From a virus, in the IMG/VR virus record IMGVR_UViG_3300009506_000039, positions 1 through 56,262 of that record: a DNA stretch of 56,262 nucleotides. One strand, written 5' to 3'. The notes under the pieces were generated by a model. That model did not search any database and was not told the origin of the DNA. It saw nothing but the letters and a program-made list of their open reading frames with translations. Numbering within the stretch: position 1 is the stretch's first letter; every line of letters starts with the position of its first letter. Of the stretch, positions 32,340 through 54,426 are shown piece after piece. The position numbers and the translations under genes were made by a program.

Positions 32340-32968
32340 GCTGTATACCCCGCCTCTCTGATCGCCTCGTCGAGCATAGCTTTCGCGCCCGGATCGTCTG
32401 GGTCGGGCATGTGACTCAAGAGCTCGTCTCTGATCGCTCTGATCAGCGCGTCGCGCGTCAAGCGCTTGACGTCGACGCGTCGCACGTGCAAGACCCGCTT
32501 GTCGAGCACGCCTGTGCCTTGCTGCGGAAAGTCGCGCGCCGTCGCCTCTCGTCGAGACGTCAAGACATACGGGAAGTCGGGCTCGTTCTTGCGCCTGTTC
32601 AAGATCGCAGCTTGCAAGCGTTCGAGCTCTTTCTTTGAGGCTGTGACAAAGACAGCCACCTCCCCATGCTTGAGCGCGCGCACTTGCTCAAGCTGCGCAG
32701 CCCATCGGCTCGTTCCCCGAACCCGCCCGCGCGACTGCACAAGCCGCGCAGCTTTGCGCACTCTCAGAGTGTACGTGTCCTCTGCGGCGTCTGCCGGCTC
32801 TTTGTTCGTCTTGATCGGAAACTCGTCTTTGCGTGCTTGAGCCAAAAAGTACTTGCGCCAGGTCTCGACGTCTGATCTGTCAAAAACGCGAGTCCACTCG
32901 ACGCACTCTGAGAGAGTCGTCTTGATCTGTTCCCATGCCGCAAGCTGCGGCGTCGTGTTCGTGCTCAC
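32336..32968 (-). CDS. Hypothetical basic protein
   Basis: A 210-residue protein with a GTG start that overlaps the methyltransferase stop by one base (TAGTG). It is rich in Arg/Lys (TLRVRKAARLVQSRGRVRG, LNRRKNEPDFPYVLTSRREA), which suits nucleic-acid binding. VAVFVTASKKELERLQAAI may be a strand-helix unit. The family is not recognised. It lies between the MT-A70 methyltransferase and a small acidic protein. Confidence 0.55.
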   Translation of the reverse strand: MSTNTTPQLAAWEQIKTTLSECVEWTRVFDRSDVETWRKYFLAQARKDEFPIKTNKEPADAAEDTYTLRVRKAARLVQSRGRVRGTSRWAAQLEQVRALKHGEVAVFVTASKKELERLQAAILNRRKNEPDFPYVLTSRREATARDFPQQGTGVLDKRVLHVRRVDVKRLTRDALIRAIRDELLSHMPDPDDPGAKAMLDEAIREAGYTA

Positions 32969-33930
32969 TAGAAAAGCCTCCCTTGTTCGACCATTTCCGA
33001 CTCTGTGTCGTACTCAAGATCGAGATCATTGTACTCGTCGCCAACGTCGAGATCGAAAGGATCGTCGACGAGCGGGCGCACTTGATCGGTGCCCGCGTCC
33101 GTGAGTGCAGTACAGCCGATCCGCTGCGTGCCCTCAAGCGTCAAGACAGAGTCGCCCAAGAGCGCGCCCTGATCGAGCTCTGACTTGTCGACTCGCGCAA
33201 GCGCGGGGATCGACTCTCGCAAGTCGAGCCCGTCGAGCTCGTTCCCCAGACAGTACCAACCGGGCAAGTGACGACGTGCGAACAGTTCGACGTACACATG
33301 CCCGCTCTCAGGGGGATACATGCGCTCTGTTCGTTTCTGCGCCTCGTCAGGCTTGACGCTGTGCTTTTTGTCAGAGCCGGGCAGATATCGGCGCGGCGCA
33401 AAGATCACTTGTCGTCGCGCTTTCGTGCGCTCGAACGTCTTGCCATTGAACACTAGCCCGCTTTCTGTCTCGTGAGCTCGACGAGCAAGCAAGACGATCT
33501 CGACGTTACTCGCAGTATACGCGCCCGGACCAAAGACAGTCAACTTGTCGAGAAACGGCTGCAAGCGCCCCGTCTCTGTGATCTCGTCGACAAGTGATCG
33601 CACTTTGCGCAGTGTGAGCACAGGCATGCGCCAAAAGCTTGCATTGATCTTGATCCACACAAAAGCGCACGTGCAGTACTTGAACCCCCAGGCGCTCATG
33701 AGCTCGAACGCGTCGGGCAGAAAAGGGAACGTCACCCACATGAACAAGTACGCGCGCTCGTCGGCGATCTCGCCGACTGGGATCGTGCTCATGTCGCGCG
33801 TGCTCTCTGTCAAGTACCGCTCACTTGCGCCGATGCCGAAACGAGTCAAGCGCTCTGGGTTGTCTCGACGAGTCGCGCGTCGATTATTGTATCGCCACGC
33901 GGGATCGCAAAAGATCATGCTTGCTTTCAC
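32968..33930 (-). CDS. MT-A70 family adenine methyltransferase
   Basis: A 320-residue protein. I chose GTG 33930, which makes a GTGA overlap with the upstream stop; ATG 33918 is the alternative. The catalytic motif is DPAWRY (DPPW class, near residue 9). It is followed by FMWVTFPFLPDAFELMSAWGFKY, ASNVEIVLLARR, KPDEAQKRTERMYPP and ELFARRHLPGWYCLGNEL, the full MT-A70 order. The C-terminal 90 residues are acidic and extra. It should make N6-methyladenine in phage DNA, probably against restriction. No restriction partner is nearby. Confidence 0.88.
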   Translation of the reverse strand: MKASMIFCDPAWRYNNRRATRRDNPERLTRFGIGASERYLTESTRDMSTIPVGEIADERAYLFMWVTFPFLPDAFELMSAWGFKYCTCAFVWIKINASFWRMPVLTLRKVRSLVDEITETGRLQPFLDKLTVFGPGAYTASNVEIVLLARRAHETESGLVFNGKTFERTKARRQVIFAPRRYLPGSDKKHSVKPDEAQKRTERMYPPESGHVYVELFARRHLPGWYCLGNELDGLDLRESIPALARVDKSELDQGALLGDSVLTLEGTQRIGCTALTDAGTDQVRPLVDDPFDLDVGDEYNDLDLEYDTESEMVEQGRLF

Positions 33931-34352
33931 GAGAAACGCTTTGCCAAGTGACGAGCGGCGCGCGCCCGTCCGAGGCACGTATCACAGACGACGTGATCTT
34001 TGTCTGCGATCGGCTCCCCACAGTTCGAGCAAGCTGCATACTCAAGATCGAGCTCGCCGCCTGCCGTCTCACGAGCCAACCCGTCGAATACGATACCGTG
34101 ACCGGCCGCGCCGATCTTGAGTCGCACACTGTCTGCCTCGTGCTCTGCGCAGAACACAATAAAGCACGGCGGGGAGTCTCGGCGTCTTGAGACTTGCGAT
34201 ATACACACGAACATGTGACCCCGGCGCGGCTGCAGTTCTATACCCAGCCCGCCGAGTCCGTCAGCGATTATGAGCTTTACATGCTCACCTTGACGATCTC
34301 TCTGGGGCGCGATTGTCGATACGCCCACATGCGTGCACTCGTCGATCCTCAT
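33927..34352 (-). CDS. Hypothetical protein with C-terminal zinc ribbon
   Basis: A 141-residue protein starting in an ATGA overlap with the gene at 34349. The body is beta-rich (HVKLIIADGLGGLGIELQP, PCFIVFCAEHEAD). The C-terminus has CSNCGEPIADKDHVVCDTCLGRARAA in two parts, a four-cysteine zinc ribbon similar to DksA/TraR-type ribbons. One of four small zinc proteins in this cluster. Function unknown. Confidence 0.55.
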   Translation of the reverse strand: MRIDECTHVGVSTIAPQRDRQGEHVKLIIADGLGGLGIELQPRRGHMFVCISQVSRRRDSPPCFIVFCAEHEADSVRLKIGAAGHGIVFDGLARETAGGELDLEYAACSNCGEPIADKDHVVCDTCLGRARAARHLAKRFS

Positions 34353-37787: not shown

Positions 37788-38867
37788 ATGCCCAACAATA
37801 TACTGCACCCCGTAGGCGTCGATCTCGGGTACTGGGACGTGAAAGCGCGCAGCATGCGCCGTTTCTACTCTGGCCCGTCTTGCATCGGCACCCCAGATCA
37901 CGCGCGCTTTGCTGCAAGCTCTGCGCTCGACTATGGCGCGATCCGCTATGACGGACAAGAGTACTTTTGCGGAGACGTCGCGCTGACTCATAGTCGCAGC
38001 GTCACCCGATCGGAGGGACGCGATCGAGTCGGGCGCGACGAGTACCGCGTCTTGTTCTTGCACGCTCTGCATCAAATCATGCGACACATGCCCTCTGGCA
38101 GAAAGAACCCGACCGGGCAGCCTGGCCTATACAACCCGAACGGTCAGACGTCGATCTTGCTCGTGACCGGCTTGCCTGTGGCGTTCTATGAGGACGCTGA
38201 TCTCGACGCCGTCGAGACTGCGCTCTTTGGACAGCACATCATAACCGCAGCGAACGGGCGCGCGGGCGAGTCGAGAGAGCACACGATCAACGTCGTACCC
38301 GAGTCGCGGATCGTGCCGCAGCCGTTCGGCACGCTGTTCTCTCTGACACTCACGGACAAGGGTGAGTATTCTGATCAAGCGCACTTGCTCGACGAGCGCG
38401 TCGGCATCCTCGACATTGGCGGCAAGACGACGAACGTCCAGCTTGTCGAGAACGCCGCCGCTATGGAGGCGACGAGCACGTCGATCAATGCTGGCGCGTG
38501 GTCTGTCGTGCGCGCACTGTCGCCGCTCTTGACTCGGCGCTTTCCCAAGCTCGAACAGTCCGATCGCGTCTTGCGCGCCGCTTTGCGAGATCGACAAGTC
38601 AAGTACATGGGGACAATGTACAGCATTGCCGACGAGGTCTTGCAAGTCTCTGAGCCTCTGGCCGATCAGATCGCAGCTAAGGCCGACGAGTACTGGTCAG
38701 GCGGTGCAAGCTGCGATCACATCTTGATCACGGGCGGCGGCGCTCTGTTGATCGGGGAACTCGTCGCGCGCACGTTCGCTGACCACGGAAGCGTGCGGGT
38801 GGTCGAGGACGCGCAGAACGCCAACGCGGTCGGGTTCTATCGGTTCGCCCGCATGATCGCGGGCTGA
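37788..38867 (+). CDS. ParM/actin-like ATPase
   Basis: A 359-residue protein with AAAGGAG upstream. Phosphate 1 is VGVDLGYWDVKA (9-20), phosphate 2 VGILDIGGKTTNV (about 205-217), and the adenosine loop ILITGGGALLIGEL (about 311-324). This is the actin-superfamily order of ParM/StbA and Alp proteins that build filaments to move plasmid or phage DNA. Upstream lie a small gene and an inverted repeat; downstream a FtsK-like translocase. It suggests segregation of an extrachromosomal genome or intracellular positioning of phage DNA. Confidence 0.85.
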   Translation: MPNNILHPVGVDLGYWDVKARSMRRFYSGPSCIGTPDHARFAASSALDYGAIRYDGQEYFCGDVALTHSRSVTRSEGRDRVGRDEYRVLFLHALHQIMRHMPSGRKNPTGQPGLYNPNGQTSILLVTGLPVAFYEDADLDAVETALFGQHIITAANGRAGESREHTINVVPESRIVPQPFGTLFSLTLTDKGEYSDQAHLLDERVGILDIGGKTTNVQLVENAAAMEATSTSINAGAWSVVRALSPLLTRRFPKLEQSDRVLRAALRDRQVKYMGTMYSIADEVLQVSEPLADQIAAKADEYWSGGASCDHILITGGGALLIGELVARTFADHGSVRVVEDAQNANAVGFYRFARMIAG

Positions 38868-39304: not shown

Positions 39305-39655
39305 ATGGCCTCGGTGTCTGTGACGTTCTCATACAACCCCGATCACTATCCCGAACTGCACGCTTGGCTTGAGGCAATGAGGGGTGACAAGTCGGCGCAG
39401 TGGCGACAGTTCATGACGGCGCATCTGACCGGCAAGGGTTGCTTGCAGTCAGAGGCGACGCTCGACTCAGAGCTTGAGACGTCGCCCGACTCGCACACAC
39501 TGCGAGACGTGCTTGAGACGGTGCAGCGCATAGAGGCAGAGCTCAAAGCAAGCAAGGGTGCATGGGTCGTGCGCGACGAGCAAGACGAACAAGTCGAGCC
39601 CGTCGTCTCAAAGGCGACGCGCGCCAACTTGTTATCACTTGGGAGACGATCATGA
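39305..39655 (+). CDS. Hypothetical protein preceding the translocase
   Basis: A 116-residue protein beginning three bases after the previous stop. It has a start YNPDHYPELHAWLEAMRGDKSAQW, then an acidic helical part LRDVLETVQRIEAELKASK. Its stop overlaps the FtsK-like start by ATGA, so the two may act together. Resembles small plasmid regulators only in size. Confidence 0.5.
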   Translation: MASVSVTFSYNPDHYPELHAWLEAMRGDKSAQWRQFMTAHLTGKGCLQSEATLDSELETSPDSHTLRDVLETVQRIEAELKASKGAWVVRDEQDEQVEPVVSKATRANLLSLGRRS

Positions 39656-41076
39656 AACAGACAACCAAAGCGGCAATGAAAGCAGAGGCGCGCGCAAAGC
39701 ACTTGCACAAGCTCGCCGAGAACCTGACGCTTGCTGCGTACTCTGAAAGGCTGGGCAAGGGCGCGGCGATCTCTGACTTTTACGCGATCAATGGTCCGCG
39801 CTCTGGGGCGCTAGAGATCAGGGCTGGCTTTTCTGTGGGCGACATACGTGCTGCACTCGTCAAGAACGACGCCGCGATCTTGCGCAATCTGATCCCCTGG
39901 CAGTTCGGGGGCGATCCGTCTGTGTTCATGAACGGCGCGCTTTTGCGCGTCGAGGCTGCATGGCCCGCCGACTTGCAGGACACAGAGGTCTTGCTCTCTC
40001 GTCTCGGGTGGGGACCGCTTGGCAATGCCCGAACTGGTCAGCCGCGCGCGCCCCAGTACAGAGACGCCGAGACGTTCGCACATGATCACCAGTGGATCAC
40101 GGGGATCAATGAGAACGGCGGCACCTTGCTTGCAGCGCTCGACGACGTAACCCCGAACTGGCTACTTGCTGGACTGCCCGGCTCGGGTAAGTCGACTGCT
40201 CTGCAAGCTGCGGTGGTCGGGCTCACACGTCCGGGGACGAACGAACTGATCATGCTTGACGGCAAGTATGGTGCGAGCCTGCGCACTGTCGAGCACTTGA
40301 GCCCATGGGCGCTTGCGACAGAGATCGAGACTATGCGCGACGCGCTCGGCTATGCGTTCGAGGAAATGCAGCGCAGATACCGCAGCGGTCAGACTGTCGA
40401 CTCGACAGACGTGCCCCCGCGTCTCGTGATCGTCTTTGACGAGTTTCAAGACTACATGGCCGACGCTGTGATCTCTGCGCTCATGTCTCGTCTTGCGCGC
40501 ATGGGGCGGCAAGTGAACGTACACTTGATCATAGCCACGCAGCACCCAAGTCTTGAGGCGTTCGGGGGCGACACAGTCGCGCGCCGCTGCATATCAGGAC
40601 GCATGGCCTTGCGAGTCGCAGACCCGAAAGCCTCGGAGGTCGCGCTCGGCGTCACGCAGCCGCAAGCTCACAAGCTGCAAGGCAAGGGAGACATGATTGT
40701 CTTGACCCCGAACGCTTGCCACAGAGCTCAAGGCGTACTCTTGTTGCCGCGCGACGTCGAACTTGTCGGCGCGCCCTACGCCGATCGGATCGCGTTTCCC
40801 CAGTTCGACCCCGCAAGCCTTGAGGGGGACGAGACGAAAGAGACGCGCAGCGCATCGCGACGCCCGATCTGGAAACAAGAGGAAATCACAAGCGCGCTCT
40901 TGTCTGCGATCGCAGAGGAGGGGCGTGATAAACTGCGCGTGAGAGTAAAGGACGCGCTGGGCATGAGTCGCATGATCGGGGCGACTCGTGCACGCGCTTT
41001 GCTTGAACTTGGGCGTCAAGCCTGGGACGAGATCGCGGATAGTGACGAGCTCGCCCAGTACGTACAGTCACTATAA
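39652..41076 (+). CDS. FtsK/SpoIIIE-like DNA translocase
   Basis: A 474-residue protein; ATG 39652 overlaps the upstream stop by ATGA. Walker A is GLPGSGKST (about 175-183), Walker B VIVFDEF (about 259-265), followed by HLIIATQHPS and a late GKGDMIVL strand, the FtsK sequence order. N-terminal 150 residues are without membrane helices, unlike cellular FtsK. The C-terminus (about 420-474) could be a winged-helix gamma-type DNA-binding domain. Relatives occur on conjugative plasmids and plasmid-like elements. Probably pumps double-stranded DNA in segregation or transfer. Confidence 0.85.
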   Translation: MKQTTKAAMKAEARAKHLHKLAENLTLAAYSERLGKGAAISDFYAINGPRSGALEIRAGFSVGDIRAALVKNDAAILRNLIPWQFGGDPSVFMNGALLRVEAAWPADLQDTEVLLSRLGWGPLGNARTGQPRAPQYRDAETFAHDHQWITGINENGGTLLAALDDVTPNWLLAGLPGSGKSTALQAAVVGLTRPGTNELIMLDGKYGASLRTVEHLSPWALATEIETMRDALGYAFEEMQRRYRSGQTVDSTDVPPRLVIVFDEFQDYMADAVISALMSRLARMGRQVNVHLIIATQHPSLEAFGGDTVARRCISGRMALRVADPKASEVALGVTQPQAHKLQGKGDMIVLTPNACHRAQGVLLLPRDVELVGAPYADRIAFPQFDPASLEGDETKETRSASRRPIWKQEEITSALLSAIAEEGRDKLRVRVKDALGMSRMIGATRARALLELGRQAWDEIADSDELAQYVQSL

Positions 41077-49159: not shown

Positions 49160-49183
49160 GTCCCTACACAGAAAGGCATGCCG

Positions 49184-49771
49184 ATGACAGACAAGAGCGT
49201 CGAGCAAGACGCGCTCGAACCTCTCACATGGACGAACGCGCAGCGCAGACTTGGCGATCTCGTTCCTCAAGACGACAACCCGAAAGAGATCGACAAAGCA
49301 AGCGCTGCACGTCTCAAGCAATCGCGCCTCAAGTTCGGACAAGTACAGACTCTCGCAATCTCCCCAGATGGGCACCTGCTCGACGGGCACCAGCGGCAAG
49401 CGGTGTGGGCCGCAGCAAAAGAGCTCGGCCCCGATCTGCTCGTCGACGTGCGCGTCGCCTCCCGTGAGCTCACCCCGCACGAGCGCCACGAGCTCACGGT
49501 TCTCTTGCAGCAAGGGACGACGGGCTCATGGGTGGGCGACAAGCTCCTCGGGTGGGGTGAGGCAGACGAGCATTTGATCGCCTGGGGACTCGACAAGTCG
49601 CAATTGCTCGACTGGCGCAGACCCGACATGCCCCCGGCTGGCGACGCAGACACAGACGTCCCCGACAGTGCATGGGGCGTCGTGATCGAGTGCGTCGACG
49701 AGGACGAGCAAGTCGAGCTCATACAAAAGCTCACAGCGGAGGGGCTGCAATGCCGAGCGCTCATATCATAA
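49184..49771 (+). CDS. ParB-like N-terminal (ParB/Srx) domain protein
   Basis: A 195-residue protein. I chose ATG 49184, seven bases after GAAAGG; the ORF from 49100 would cover the attenuator. The ParB/Srx core has VPQDDNPKEIDKASAARLKQS, VQTLAISPDGHLLDGHQRQAVW (DGHQR at 67-71), and a VDVRVASRELTPHERHEL tail. Members bind nucleotide (CTP in ParB) or act as nucleases. It leads the unit that includes an ABC ATPase, GNAT, PanD and a CoA-transferase-like gene. Likely the DNA-recognition component of that set; partition role is also possible. Confidence 0.8.
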   Translation: MTDKSVEQDALEPLTWTNAQRRLGDLVPQDDNPKEIDKASAARLKQSRLKFGQVQTLAISPDGHLLDGHQRQAVWAAAKELGPDLLVDVRVASRELTPHERHELTVLLQQGTTGSWVGDKLLGWGEADEHLIAWGLDKSQLLDWRRPDMPPAGDADTDVPDSAWGVVIECVDEDEQVELIQKLTAEGLQCRALIS

Positions 49772-50448
49772 GGCAGATCGAGATCGCGCGCACGCCACGA
49801 GTCGTGCAAGTCGAGGCGCTTTTCGACGTGCCGCCGTCGCCTGTAAGTCGTGAGTCGTGGGACGTCGACATGCCGCTCGACGATCGAGACTGGAATGTCG
49901 GCTTGATCGTGGGCGCATCGGGGACCGGCAAGTCGACGATCGCCCGTGAGCTCTTTGGCGCTCAAAAGCTCGACGAGCTCAAGTGGCATGATGACTTGCC
50001 CGTCGTCGACGAGTTCCCCGAGGACATGGCGATCAAAGACGTCGTCAAGCTCATGACGTCTGTCGGGTTCGGCTCGCCCCCGAACTGGCTCCGCCCCTAT
50101 CATGTTCTCTCGACGGGAGAACAGTTCCGCGCCTCTGTCGCGCGCGCAATCGCAGAGAGCGCGCAGCAAGAGATCGTCGTGATCGACGAGTTCACCAGTG
50201 TGGTAGATCGACAAGTCGCACAAGTCGCAAGTCACGCAGTACAAAAGACGATCCGCCGACAAAAGCGCAAGCTGATCGCTGTGACCTGTCATTATGACGT
50301 GCTCGACTGGCTACAACCCGACTGGGTGTATGAGCCGGCGACGTCGCAATTTGCCTGGCGGGAGGTCGGGCAGCACCCCCCTTTTGTCTTGAGGTCTATA
50401 AAGTCTCACGGGACACATGGCCCATGTTTAGGCGCTTTCACTATATGA
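49750..50448 (+). CDS. ABC-type ATPase (short product)
   Basis: A 232-residue protein; ATG 49750 has GGAGGGG upstream and overlaps the previous gene by 22 bases. Walker A is GASGTGKST (55-63), signature LSTGEQ (120-125), Walker B VVIDEF (143-148) and the switch His181 in TCHYD. It has no membrane part, like SMC/Rad50-type or COG2401-type ATPases. In the COG2401 family the same ATPase is fused to an acetyltransferase domain, and here the GNAT follows in the -1 frame. Last 18 residues after the slip site look non-homologous. Confidence 0.85.
   Translation: MPSAHIIRQIEIARTPRVVQVEALFDVPPSPVSRESWDVDMPLDDRDWNVGLIVGASGTGKSTIARELFGAQKLDELKWHDDLPVVDEFPEDMAIKDVVKLMTSVGFGSPPNWLRPYHVLSTGEQFRASVARAIAESAQQEIVVIDEFTSVVDRQVAQVASHAVQKTIRRQKRKLIAVTCHYDVLDWLQPDWVYEPATSQFAWREVGQHPPFVLRSIKSHGTHGPCLGAFTI
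50376..50385 (+). promoter_or_regulatory. Candidate -1 frameshift site joining ABC ATPase and GNAT
   Basis: C CCT TTT (50379-50385) is in the ATPase frame as X XXY YYZ, within a run of six C and four T. Slipping -1 leads to an open frame beginning CLEVYKVSRDTW and running into the GNAT without a stop, which would give a 377-residue ATPase-GNAT fusion. A single-base sequencing error in the homopolymers would give the same picture. Confidence 0.55.
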
Positions 50449-50882
50449 GCGGCAAGCTGCACCAGGGCGCGCAGTGTTACGGGGGATACGTCGACGGGCG
50501 ACTCGTCGCCTTCTCTGCTTTCGTTCACTTTCCACACCCCAAGATCAAGAACCTCAAGATGGGGCATCGGCTCGTGGTGCTCCCTGACTGGCAGGGGTTG
50601 GGCATCGGGGGCAAGTTCGACGACTGGCTCGGCGAGTACCTTTGGCATCAGGGCATGCGATATCATAACGTCGTGGCGCATCCTGCAATGATCGCGCACT
50701 ATAGCGCGTCCCCAAGATGGGCGCACTTAGGGACGCAGCGGCACAAGCTCGTCGGTCGCACGTCAAGCGTCGCCCCCTTGAGAAAGCACCACGCCGACGT
50801 GAGTCTCAAGAGGATCGTCTCGTCTTTCGAGTACAGATCACCGAAAGGAGGGTTAGCCGGTGAGGACTTTCGTTTCTGCTAA
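50424..50882 (+). CDS. GNAT-family acyltransferase
   Basis: A 152-residue protein as drawn from ATG 50424, though homology seems to start upstream (DTWPMFRRFHYMSG). Motif A is LPDWQGLGIG (53-62; acyl-CoA pyrophosphate loop Gln57-Gly62), preceded by a strand HRLVVLP and followed by helix KFDDWLGEYL. FHYMSGKLHQGAQCY near the N-terminus resembles GNATs fused to ABC ATPases (COG2401). It should transfer an acyl group from CoA. Mu Mom, which modifies adenine in DNA, is also GNAT-like. Here the acceptor is unknown; a PanZ-type activator of PanD is a second possibility. Confidence 0.75.
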   Translation: MFRRFHYMSGKLHQGAQCYGGYVDGRLVAFSAFVHFPHPKIKNLKMGHRLVVLPDWQGLGIGGKFDDWLGEYLWHQGMRYHNVVAHPAMIAHYSASPRWAHLGTQRHKLVGRTSSVAPLRKHHADVSLKRIVSSFEYRSPKGGLAGEDFRFC

Positions 50883-51237
50883 AATCCACGGCATACGCTG
50901 CACTGACAAGAGCGTCGAGTACCACGGCTCGGTGAGCATATGTCAAGAGCTCATGGCCGCAGCCGGGATCGCGCCGTTCGAGCAAGTGCACGTGATCAAT
51001 CTGACGAACGGGCAGCGCTGGATCACATACGCGATCCGCGCAGAGCGCGGCGTCTTTTCCTTGAACGGCGGGGGCGCTCGACTGGGTGAGCCCGGCGACA
51101 AGTTCGTCTTGCTTACCTACGATCAGTGGCGCGCTCAAGACTACCCCGGCGCAACCGTCGTGCACTGCGACGACGAGAACAAGATCGCAAGCCTGGGACA
51201 CTATACGCCCACGGGCCAGTATAAGGAGGCGTCATGA
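50860..51237 (+). CDS. panD: Aspartate 1-decarboxylase (PanD-like)
   Basis: A 125-residue protein with a GTG start after GAAAGGAGGG; E. coli PanD has 126. The self-cleaving Gly-Ser pair is YHGS (Gly23-Ser24), which forms the pyruvoyl group on Ser. Also conserved are Lys8, Tyr21, TNGQRWITYAI with Arg53, Thr56 and Tyr57, AERG, and SLNGGGA with Asn69, matching the family catalytic set. It should convert L-aspartate to beta-alanine, the precursor of pantothenate and CoA. Neighbours are a GNAT and a CoA-transferase-like protein, so it probably feeds CoA-linked chemistry. I know of no characterised phage PanD. Substrate could have changed. Confidence 0.88.
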   Translation: MRTFVSAKIHGIRCTDKSVEYHGSVSICQELMAAAGIAPFEQVHVINLTNGQRWITYAIRAERGVFSLNGGGARLGEPGDKFVLLTYDQWRAQDYPGATVVHCDDENKIASLGHYTPTGQYKEAS

Positions 51238-51980
51238 GCCGAGGCGTCTTTTGCAATCCCCGCGTGCGCGTGCTTGAGCTTGGCAACTATGTCGTGCCCG
51301 CCTATGCGGGTATGATACTTGCAGAGCAAGGCAACTATGTCGAAAAGTGGACGCGCCCCGGCGCGCTCGATCCTATACAAGAGCTTGATCGGGGCGACGA
51401 GCTCTGGCAGTGGATCAACAAAGACAAGAACGTCATTCCGTGCGAACTGACAAGAGACGAGCTTGAGCACGCTTTGAGTCAGAGCTTTATAACCCGAGTC
51501 GTCGACAATTTTAGGCCGTCGACGCTCGACAAGCTCAAGATCGATCCGCTAGAGATCGCACTCAGGCATGGGATCGTCTGGGTGAGTGTGCGCTCTGAGG
51601 TCGGGGAACGCTCTTTCGACGTGATCGCCCAGACTCGTGCATGGGGCGACTTTGCGGGCGCCTTGCCGTTCTACCTGGGGGACACGGCGGCGGGGCTCTG
51701 GGCCGCGTTCAAGCTTGCGATCACGAGCACGCCCGGCCATTACGTGATCGGCCATGCGTCTTGTCTTGCAAAGCTCGTGGAGGGTGAGCTTGTCGTCGAC
51801 GCTGACTCGCAGCGCTTGCGCTATGGCGTCTCGCCATGGGATCGCGATGTGTACGGATACGACAGCGAGATCGGCGCGACTGTCGAGTACAAGGGCGAGC
51901 GTCTCACAGAGCCAAACCGCGATCGGGCGTGGCGTCTTGACAATCTCTGGCATGACGACGACGGGCGGATCATAATCTGA
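51234..51980 (+). CDS. Class III CoA-transferase-like protein (CaiB/BaiF), truncated
   Basis: A 248-residue protein, ATGA overlap with panD. VRVLELGNYVVPAYAGMILAEQG and VEKWTRPG (11-43) match the CaiB/BaiF N-terminus. RVVDNFRPSTLDKL (88-101) matches the ENFRPG segment. FYLGDTAAGLWAAF (146-159) holds Asp150 at the place of the catalytic Asp. Usual members have about 400 residues; this one keeps the large-domain core and lacks much of the remainder. It may transfer CoA between carboxylic acids or bind an acyl-CoA for the GNAT. The C-terminus is unique. Confidence 0.72.
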   Translation: MSRGVFCNPRVRVLELGNYVVPAYAGMILAEQGNYVEKWTRPGALDPIQELDRGDELWQWINKDKNVIPCELTRDELEHALSQSFITRVVDNFRPSTLDKLKIDPLEIALRHGIVWVSVRSEVGERSFDVIAQTRAWGDFAGALPFYLGDTAAGLWAAFKLAITSTPGHYVIGHASCLAKLVEGELVVDADSQRLRYGVSPWDRDVYGYDSEIGATVEYKGERLTEPNRDRAWRLDNLWHDDDGRIII

Positions 51981-52023: not shown

Positions 52024-52704
52024 ATGGCCGACAAAAAGACAAAGTACACAGCGGAGCAGTTTATCGCCGCGATTCCTGGCACTGGGGGCGTGATCTCTCT
52101 GATCGCCGACGTCGTCGGGTGCTCGTGGCATACTGCTAGAAAGTACATCCACGAGCACGCCACGGTGCTTGAGGCGTTCGAGGCCGAGCGTATGTCGATC
52201 ACAGACAGGGCGCGGCACAATATCCTCAAGGCAATTGAGGCGGGCGATCTCGCGATGAGCAAGTGGTGGTTGCAGTGTCAAGACCCCGAGTTCTCGACAA
52301 AGTCAGAGACGACGATCAAGGGCGACGAGAACGCGCCGCTTGCCATCGGGGGCGACTTGACGATCCGCCGATGGGTTGCGCCGCGCACAGAGCAACAGAC
52401 TCAAGACCTCGACAGAGAGCTTGCGCGTCTTGCGGCCGGTGAGCCCGAACTGGGCAGCGATCCCGATCTCGTGCTTCCTGCGCCTGACGCGCCGCTCGTG
52501 CACGCCCCAGTACAGGGCGACGATGCGGTCCCGGCGTCGTGGACGCGCCCAGATCGAGACATGTCTCTTGACGCCGTTCGTGCTCTGTCAGACGAGCAAG
52601 AGCGAGACGACGACGACGACAGATCGGAAGCCAAAAAGAATGCAGCGCTTGCCCGTGATCTCGTGCGGGAGATGCTTGCTAAGATGGAAGGGAAAAGCGC
52701 ATGA
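52024..52704 (+). CDS. Terminase small subunit
   Basis: A 226-residue protein. The N-terminal HTH has TAEQFIAAIPGTGGVISLIADVVGCSWHTARKYI, then FEAERMSITDRARHNILKAIEAGD, the usual small-terminase order. It should bind the packaging site and load the large subunit. The C-terminal half is acidic and Pro-rich, with a DDDDD tract. Position before a 62-residue gene and the large terminase confirms it. Confidence 0.8.
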   Translation: MADKKTKYTAEQFIAAIPGTGGVISLIADVVGCSWHTARKYIHEHATVLEAFEAERMSITDRARHNILKAIEAGDLAMSKWWLQCQDPEFSTKSETTIKGDENAPLAIGGDLTIRRWVAPRTEQQTQDLDRELARLAAGEPELGSDPDLVLPAPDAPLVHAPVQGDDAVPASWTRPDRDMSLDAVRALSDEQERDDDDDRSEAKKNAALARDLVREMLAKMEGKSA

Positions 52705-52890: not shown

Positions 52891-54426
52891 GTGTCTCAAG
52901 CTGTGCCCTGGACGCCCACGGGCGATCTAGTGTACGATCCCCTGGCTCAGACGTTCGTGATCGACGGCTTGGCGCTTGTCGACGAGTCGATCGGTACGGG
53001 CGCTCTTGAGTGTGACTTTTCCTTCCCCCTCAGAACTGAGGCAGAGCTCCGACGCTTTCTTGCTCTGTCGTTCGACGTGTATATCCCAGACGTGCACGTC
53101 TGCCCGAACCATAGCACGCCCTGGCGTGCTTTTGCCGACGCGTACTTTGCACGCTCTCCTGTCTCGATCTGGAAAGCGTCGCGCGGGCTCGGCGGCAAGT
53201 CATACTTGCTTGCCTTGCTCGGCCTGACAGAGGCGATCACACTGGGGGCAGACGTGAACGTCCTGGGCGGCTCTGGCGAACAGTCGGAGCGCGTGCATGA
53301 GTACATGGCCGACTTTTGGTCGTCGCCCTACGCGCCCCGACAGTTCTTGTCGACGGACCCCGGACGGCGTGAGACTCGCATGCTCTCGGGCGCAAAGATC
53401 AAAGCACTCATGGCGTCGTCGCGCTCTGTTCGTGGGCCGCACCCGCAGCGCCTGAGACTCGACGAGATCGACGAGATCGATCTAGCGATCTTTGACGCTG
53501 CAATGGGACAACCCATGAACGCGTACAAGGGGGAGGGCGCAAAGCGGCACCTCATACGTGCACAGACTGTCGGCTCGTCGACGCACCAGTACGCCGATGG
53601 GACCATGACTAAAATCCTCTTGCGCGCAGCCGACAAAGGCTGGCCCGTACATGAATGGTGCTATCGTGAGAGTCATGCGCTCGGGTTCGGCTGGCTCTCT
53701 GCTATGCAGATTGCGCAGAAACGATCAGAGGTGACGCAAGTCATGTGGGACGTCGAGTACGACTTGCAAGAGCCCGCCCCCGGCACGCGTGCGATCTCAA
53801 CCCCTGCGGTCAAGCGCTCGTTCTTGCGCTCTCTGCGAGTCGTCGACGGCACCCCTGGGGAATTGTACATGTTCGAGCCCCCAGAGCGTGGCGCGCAGTA
53901 CGCCACGGGCGCAGACTGGGCGCGTAAAACTGACTGGACCGTGATCGTGACCTTTCGCACTGACTGCCGCCCCATGCGCTGCGTGGCGTGGGAACGCATG
54001 CAGCGCTTGCCGTGGCCCCAGATCATCCAGCGGTACAATGCTCGTCTTGCGATGTACGGACGCCGCAGCGCCCATGACGCAACAGGCCTGGGCGACGTCG
54101 TTGCCTCATACTTGACGGGCGGGGCTTTACAAGAGGATGTACTCATGACCGGGCGCACTCGTTCTGATATGCTCACCGAGTACATAGCGGGCATGGAGAA
54201 CGGCGAGATCGCCTATCCCATGATCAAGTTCGCAGAGGCAGAGCACAGACTTGCCAGCGTCGACGACGTGTACAAGTCGGGGACGACAACACACTTGCCC
54301 GACTCTATAGCGGCGGGCGCTCTCGCATACCGCGCGGGCAAGGTGCCCGTGGCGGCAAGCGGCGAGTCGAAAGTCAACCCGCAAGCTGTGCGCGCACAAA
54401 GGAGATCGAGACTATGGAACCAATGA
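52891..54426 (+). CDS. Terminase large subunit
   Basis: A 511-residue protein with a GTG start after GGGGGGTAGG. The ATPase has a Walker A-like SRGLGGKS (97-104), and LRLDEIDEID as Walker B (about 190-199). The nuclease part has TGADWARKTDWTVIV (about 335-349, first catalytic Asp), then HDATGLGDVV (about 393), a typical second Asp region. It pumps DNA into the prohead and cuts it. ATP-binding and RNase H-fold residues appear intact. Confidence 0.9.
   Translation: MSQAVPWTPTGDLVYDPLAQTFVIDGLALVDESIGTGALECDFSFPLRTEAELRRFLALSFDVYIPDVHVCPNHSTPWRAFADAYFARSPVSIWKASRGLGGKSYLLALLGLTEAITLGADVNVLGGSGEQSERVHEYMADFWSSPYAPRQFLSTDPGRRETRMLSGAKIKALMASSRSVRGPHPQRLRLDEIDEIDLAIFDAAMGQPMNAYKGEGAKRHLIRAQTVGSSTHQYADGTMTKILLRAADKGWPVHEWCYRESHALGFGWLSAMQIAQKRSEVTQVMWDVEYDLQEPAPGTRAISTPAVKRSFLRSLRVVDGTPGELYMFEPPERGAQYATGADWARKTDWTVIVTFRTDCRPMRCVAWERMQRLPWPQIIQRYNARLAMYGRRSAHDATGLGDVVASYLTGGALQEDVLMTGRTRSDMLTEYIAGMENGEIAYPMIKFAEAEHRLASVDDVYKSGTTTHLPDSIAAGALAYRAGKVPVAASGESKVNPQAVRAQRRSRLWNQ

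Follow-up and report, generated by a model that had tools for sequence, protein, structure and literature searches.

Immediately ahead of the terminase genes in an IMG/VR virus contig (IMGVR_UViG_3300009506_000039; the whole stretch of 56,262 bases was analyzed and is called the window here), we find a conserved cassette encoding a ParB-fold protein, an ABC ATPase coupled to a GNAT acyltransferase (ABC-GNAT), the pyruvoyl enzyme aspartate 1-decarboxylase (PanD), and a compact family III coenzyme A (CoA)-transferase. We propose that the cassette may be a self-supplied acyl-modification system, in which aspartate would be converted to beta-alanine, then to beta-alanyl-CoA, and finally used to acylate a DNA base. 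We rate this complete pathway as a serious prospect that falls slightly short of even; that DNA is the target is, taken by itself, probable. Gene co-occurrence, folds, and active-site motifs are observed directly, and it is from these that we infer the reactions.

The cassette heads a rightward block that continues into the genes for the small (TerS) and large (TerL) terminase subunits, and the genes to its left are on the minus strand. The features of this region are as follows:

49178..49771, plus strand (start at 49178 or 49184): ParB/Srx-fold protein, from PHROG ParB families, a profile-profile match, and alignment
49750..50448, plus strand: ABC-type ATPase half of the ABC-GNAT protein, from PF00005, phrog_11143, and fused relatives
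50334..50882, plus strand: GNAT acyltransferase frame, -1 relative to ABC, from PF13508, phrog_11143 positions 217-350, and alignment
50376..50385, plus strand: CCCCCCTTTT run with two slippery heptamers, a candidate -1 frameshift site or homopolymer error
50424-50882, plus strand: GNAT reading frame from its first ATG; homology begins at ~50376
50860..51237, plus strand: PanD, pyruvoyl aspartate 1-decarboxylase, from PF02261, the Mycobacterium tuberculosis PanD match, and alignment
51234..51980, plus strand: compact family III (CaiB/Frc-type) CoA-transferase, 248 residues, from PF02515, structure prediction with AlphaFold2 (AF2), Foldseek, and hhalign
52024..52704, plus strand: TerS, flanking, given for positional context only; weak PHROG support (phrog_309, E = 0.0018)
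52891..54426, plus strand: TerL, flanking, given for positional context only; weak PHROG support (phrog_9, E = 1.8e-6)

The first-pass annotation of this DNA described five overlapping frames ahead of the terminase, and all five are present with the overlaps it reported (22 nucleotides for ParB/ABC, 25 for ABC/GNAT, 23 for GNAT/PanD, and 4 for PanD/CoA-transferase). Its five family identities also hold, based on Pfam matches for PanD, CoA-transferase, ABC, and GNAT and PHROG matches for ParB. Its description of a five-gene unit stands in terms of frames and overlaps, but ABC and GNAT are fused into one gene in 89 of the 92 dereplicated loci that have both domains.

Profile searches collected 145 loci, or 101 after dereplication (L-numbers below denote loci). 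Single-protein scans of IMG/VR with the window CoA-transferase or PanD gave no relatives; two-sequence alignments combining the window with Rhodococcus phage Jace recovered IMG/VR relatives of both. The order ParB, ABC-GNAT, PanD, compact CoA-transferase recurs in Jace and in many IMG/VR contigs, and because independent phages repeat it, the cassette is far beyond chance. Enough upstream sequence is available at 23 dereplicated phage-type loci, and in every one the compact CoA-transferase lies 3' of ABC-GNAT, with PanD between the two in 19; in an Alsobacter prophage, PanD lies 3 kb away. Distances among the CoA-transferases track those among the GNAT domains (r = 0.62, reached in 0 of 1000 shuffles). 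Loci with the cassette group together on the ABC-GNAT tree (8 changes, compared to 20 with shuffled labels), but there were several gains or losses. Dispersal of the genes in relatives would have counted against the first-pass proposal; the compact CoA-transferase and PanD almost always follow ParB-ABC-GNAT.

Some loci show unusual arrangements. In L056 (7557-10799), PanD and CoA-transferase lie between two ABC-GNAT genes, a duplicated module. L059 (7407-8989) has an extra stand-alone GNAT ahead of ABC-GNAT. A single Gemmataceae genome bin (L023, L024, L030) contains three PanD/compact CoA-transferase pairs, one of them frame-broken.

The window PanD matches PF02261 (E = 2.8e-31, above the cut-off) and, using the family profile, M. 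tuberculosis PanD in the PDB (E = 1.9e-28); its NCBIfam panD score of 79 is under the equivalog cut-off of 106. The processing site Gly23-Ser24 is kept (Ser codon 50929-50931), as are the catalytic residues K8, H10, Y21, R53, T56, Y57, and N69 in the alignment (K9/H11/Y22/R54/T57/Y58/N72 in E. coli numbering), most of which are invariant across 10 phage sequences. In some bacteria, PanD is limiting for the synthesis of CoA, and the gene could instead serve auxiliary metabolism, lifting beta-alanine and thereby pantothenate and CoA during infection, with its position incidental. This would fit the 5.1-Mb Alsobacter genome, where the single PanD match is near the cassette; however, the genes with which PanD overlaps and co-occurs are those for the compact CoA-transferase and ABC-GNAT, not others for pantothenate, and we regard this explanation as very unlikely. 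The GNAT-fold protein PanZ (PanM) activates PanD in E. coli, and the cassette GNAT might likewise trigger PanD self-processing rather than modify DNA. Since ~70 dereplicated loci have this GNAT fused to ABC but no PanD, we rejected this role as extremely improbable. PanD also occurs elsewhere: Achromobacter phage 2-1 (L006:5989-6384) has a stand-alone copy beside a DNA polymerase, with no cassette. PanD matches in Listeria, Enterococcus, Staphylococcus, Salmonella, and E. coli "phage" records were excluded as probable host DNA.

The window CoA-transferase gives a modest match to CoA_transf_3 (PF02515; E = 6.5e-7, above the cut-off) over residues 11-119, its N-terminal third. Its AF2 model (pLDDT 87.8) has the Rossmann-type N-terminal domain fold of family III, and Foldseek retrieved Rv3272, formyl-CoA transferase, CaiB, and human SUGCT (TMq 0.59-0.67, best E = 1.5e-10). 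Asp150 (codon 51681-51683), within the motif GDTxAGL, is invariant in 28 sequences; hhalign against a full-length member places it on the Asp of GDSxAGL, equivalent to Asp169 in Frc and CaiB. The compact proteins have 227-248 residues compared to ~400 in the usual family, all lack the C-terminal/small-domain region (~150 residues), and they thus depart from the full-length, two-domain interlocked dimer. The window protein is a member of a divergent compact branch of family III.

The ABC and GNAT domains match ABC_tran (PF00005; E = 3.7e-6) and GNAT PF13508 (E = 8e-5), and phrog_11143 covers both domains (E = 2e-70 for the window ABC). The ATPase has the Walker A, signature, and Walker B motifs GASGTGKST, LSTGEQ, and VVIDEFTS. 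In the GNAT, the acyl-CoA loop is intact (DYQGLGIG, containing QGLGIG), and an HHYL-type motif is also present in the alignment. A fused relative (L007) gave an AF2 model with pLDDT 89.4, and Jace encodes the two domains as a single protein, gp86, with PanD as gp87 and the CoA-transferase as gp88. Fusion is missing in three loci: the window itself, Streptococcus phage Javan523, and a planctomycete contig whose assembly has a gap at the junction.

The conserved first part of the window GNAT, PPFCLEVYKVSRDTWPMFRRFHYMS (from ~50376), lies in the -1 frame and 5' of the first ATG, while the last ~24 ABC codons (after ~50376) are out of frame relative to fused relatives. The frames join at CACCCCCCTTTTG, where two in-frame heptamers of the X XXY YYZ type overlap, CCCCCCT at 50376 and CCCTTTT at 50379. 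Because the conserved GNAT start precedes the first ATG, the 25-base ABC/GNAT overlap appears to be the footprint of a frameshift rather than a boundary between two ordinary genes. The split may reflect a frameshift signal or a homopolymer sequencing error; the latter is possible since no second copy of the site was found in IMG/VR. The same -1 arrangement is seen in seven Lactococcus, Oenococcus, and Streptococcus phages (L003, L146, L147, L148, L165, L166, L167), where the ATPase gene and the GNAT frame share 103-106 bases and the conserved GNAT start has no ATG, GTG, or TTG ahead of the HYL motif. The simplest reading of these sequences would be a programmed -1 frameshift that annotators overlooked. 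One of the seven, Javan420, has an extra stop within the GNAT.

The ParB protein gave no match in a Pfam scan; it matches ParB-type PHROGs with E-values of 1e-6 to 1e-9, and the alignment shows a ParB N-terminal domain, which contains a GHxR motif, and a conserved C-terminal domain of small size. Profile-profile comparison relates it to a ParB of Microbacterium phage Antuna (99.7%, E = 3e-25), gp48, whose gene overlaps that of the Mom homolog gp49. Mom-like proteins can thus adjoin a homologous ParB, and Mom of phage Mu shares with the window GNAT its fold, its phage encoding, and an HY motif at the domain start. The QxxGxG acyl-CoA loop kept in the window GNAT is, in contrast, not evident in the Mu Mom sequence. 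A ParB-like ATPase, DpdB, is used in Dpd 7-deazaguanine DNA modification (PMC12839542); the likeness to the window is that a ParB-fold protein aids base modification, whereas Dpd relies on transglycosylase chemistry and enzymes rather than the acyl transfer proposed here.

These associations bear on the target. The GNAT could instead acylate a protein (the terminase, the capsid, or the RNA polymerase of the host), as phage Rac does, with ParB and ABC recruiting it to DNA-bound targets. GNATs that modify RNA polymerase have been described in phages (PMC7824862), and the module lies directly 5' of the terminase in most relatives. However, the adjoining terminases belong to unrelated clusters, which makes a conserved terminase target unlikely, and the pairing of a homologous ParB with Mom in Antuna also argues against a protein target. 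So do neighboring genes for ASCH proteins, whose PUA-like fold suggests nucleic-acid ligands. Such genes (for example, L001:8677-9135, minus strand) are present at 31 of the 101 loci; most lie on the opposite strand, and in 23 cases the distance to the end of the module is less than 1 kb. The ASCH domain was confirmed by PF04266 (1.5e-6). They could possibly be readers or removers of the modification. We consider a protein target quite unlikely and continue with DNA as the target.

Genes analogous to the donor pair occur in other settings. Three actinobacterial chromosomes (Actinopolyspora, Promicromonospora, and strain OK074; L026, L028, L029) carry a triplet of pyridoxal phosphate (PLP) amino-acid decarboxylase, compact CoA-transferase, and aldehyde dehydrogenase, with ABC-GNAT absent. 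Because an unrelated decarboxylase adjoins the compact CoA-transferase there, we argue that this enzyme acts on a decarboxylated amino acid. The slot after ABC-GNAT can also hold other genes: L080 (4708-5274) has a class I CoA-transferase subunit there and L096 (4840-5214) a SpeD-like pyruvoyl decarboxylase, each on a single contig. Phage SpeD homologs able to decarboxylate ornithine or arginine have been described (PMC10407285, PMC9992855). In Gordonia phage AnClar, Pseudomonas phage Komp_PAO1_1, and a Porphyromonas phage, a formyltransferase gene (L004:2312-2962, L151:4068-4685, and L153:3583-4056, respectively) overlaps the end of ABC-GNAT. These three form their own ABC-GNAT clade (support 100/100) and are possibly a formyl-donor version of the system.

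Several observations weigh against the pathway from aspartate to a beta-alanyl base. L047, L055, and L059 carry the CoA-transferase with no PanD on their contigs, and PanD distances fit those of ABC, GNAT, and CoA-transferase less well (r = 0.20-0.27). Neither donor gene is present on the contigs of close ABC-GNAT relatives (8-91 kb, in some cases fragments), so this donor is not a constant requirement of the core. The absence of ~150 residues of the usual fold leaves the activity of the CoA-transferase uncertain. In the phage ASCH motif, GxKxxExR, a Glu takes the position of Thr24 in the catalytic set Lys21-Thr24-Glu74 of YqfB-type amidohydrolases (PMC6972931); with the Thr nucleophile absent, we rejected YqfB-type hydrolysis, and the ASCH proteins offer no evidence for N4-acylcytosine hydrolysis. 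Finally, a close relation to Mom, which the first-pass annotation cited as a GNAT-like adenine-modifying enzyme, is not supported: similarity is weak (hhalign 29% probability, P = 6e-4, over 53 columns only), and Mom family membership of the window GNAT was rejected on this comparison.

Some of these points would suit the same platform and DNA target with another group. The CoA-transferase might load gamma-aminobutyric acid (GABA) or a compound at the level of malonate semialdehyde, or PanD might decarboxylate aspartate already attached to DNA. The loci with CoA-transferase but no PanD favor this, the chromosomal pairing with a PLP decarboxylase and aldehyde dehydrogenase is compatible with GABA or beta-alanine, and in some phage thymidine hypermodifications a base-attached amino acid is decarboxylated. 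Yet PanD retains all catalytic residues of the free-aspartate enzyme, including those common to M. tuberculosis PanD, and has no added DNA-binding part. Overall, we find a different group unlikely.

The beta-alanyl pathway would proceed as follows. PanD, with its active site intact, is predicted to decarboxylate L-aspartate to beta-alanine, and the compact CoA-transferase would move CoA from a cellular acyl-CoA (e.g., succinyl- or acetyl-CoA) to beta-alanine. The GNAT domain would then transfer the beta-alanyl group from the resulting beta-alanyl-CoA to DNA, at the exocyclic amine of a base; the likeliest positions are adenine N6 and cytosine N4. The ParB-fold protein and ABC ATPase may spend ATP/NTP to load the enzyme on DNA, select its sites, or translocate it. 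Because the genes head the packaging/structural block beside the terminase, modification would presumably come late, ahead of packaging, and may shield the DNA from host nucleases at the next infection. The donor steps resemble an established route to beta-alanyl-CoA, PanD plus the beta-alanine CoA-transferase Act of Clostridium propionicum in engineered yeast (PMC13067684). As in that route, a decarboxylase and then a CoA-transferase would take aspartate via beta-alanine to beta-alanyl-CoA, but the phage enzyme is of the compact family III type and its product would feed a GNAT, not an ammonia lyase.

Two other regions of the window are worth describing. An MT-A70 N6-adenine methyltransferase gene (32968-33978, minus strand; PF05063, 3.9e-16) means that N6-methyladenine may also occur in the phage DNA. 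An actin-like ParM-type protein (37788-38867) and an FtsK/SpoIIIE ATPase (39562-41076) suggest plasmid-like maintenance.

The ABC-GNAT platform itself is a known prediction: acylation of a DNA base was predicted for phage GNATs coupled to ABC ATPases (Iyer et al. 2013, NAR 41:7635; restated in Viruses 2021, PMC7824862). The window module is of the same kind, with coupled domains, acyl-CoA loop, and ATPase motifs all present, and adds a fixed PanD and compact CoA-transferase donor cassette that the 2021 passage does not mention. A literature search, which did not extend to Iyer 2013, turned up no account of a DNA-modification cassette with PanD plus CoA-transferase. The donor cassette, its analogs, and the -1 GNAT arrangement are thus new in the searched literature, with the novelty of the cassette provisional. 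The earlier suggestion that the phage acylates its DNA with a beta-alanine- or CoA-derived group gains from the clustering of the genes, the intact active-site motifs that were checked, and the previously predicted core; a close tie to Mom is not supported. More broadly, and only tentatively, ABC-GNAT may be a general DNA-acylation platform with exchangeable donors that vary by phage: here PanD and a miniature CoA-transferase, giving positively charged beta-alanyl bases, and elsewhere a formyltransferase or others, with the acyltransferase of some members made via a -1 frameshift.

If true, this would be a new DNA base chemistry, an amine-bearing acyl group with its complete donor-supply pathway encoded within the phage, and the 2013 prediction of DNA acylation by ABC-GNAT would become testable. 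The donor genes suggest the adduct mass to expect, +71.037 Da, and Jace on Rhodococcus erythropolis is a cultured, sequenced host-phage pair with the cassette that would permit a direct check.

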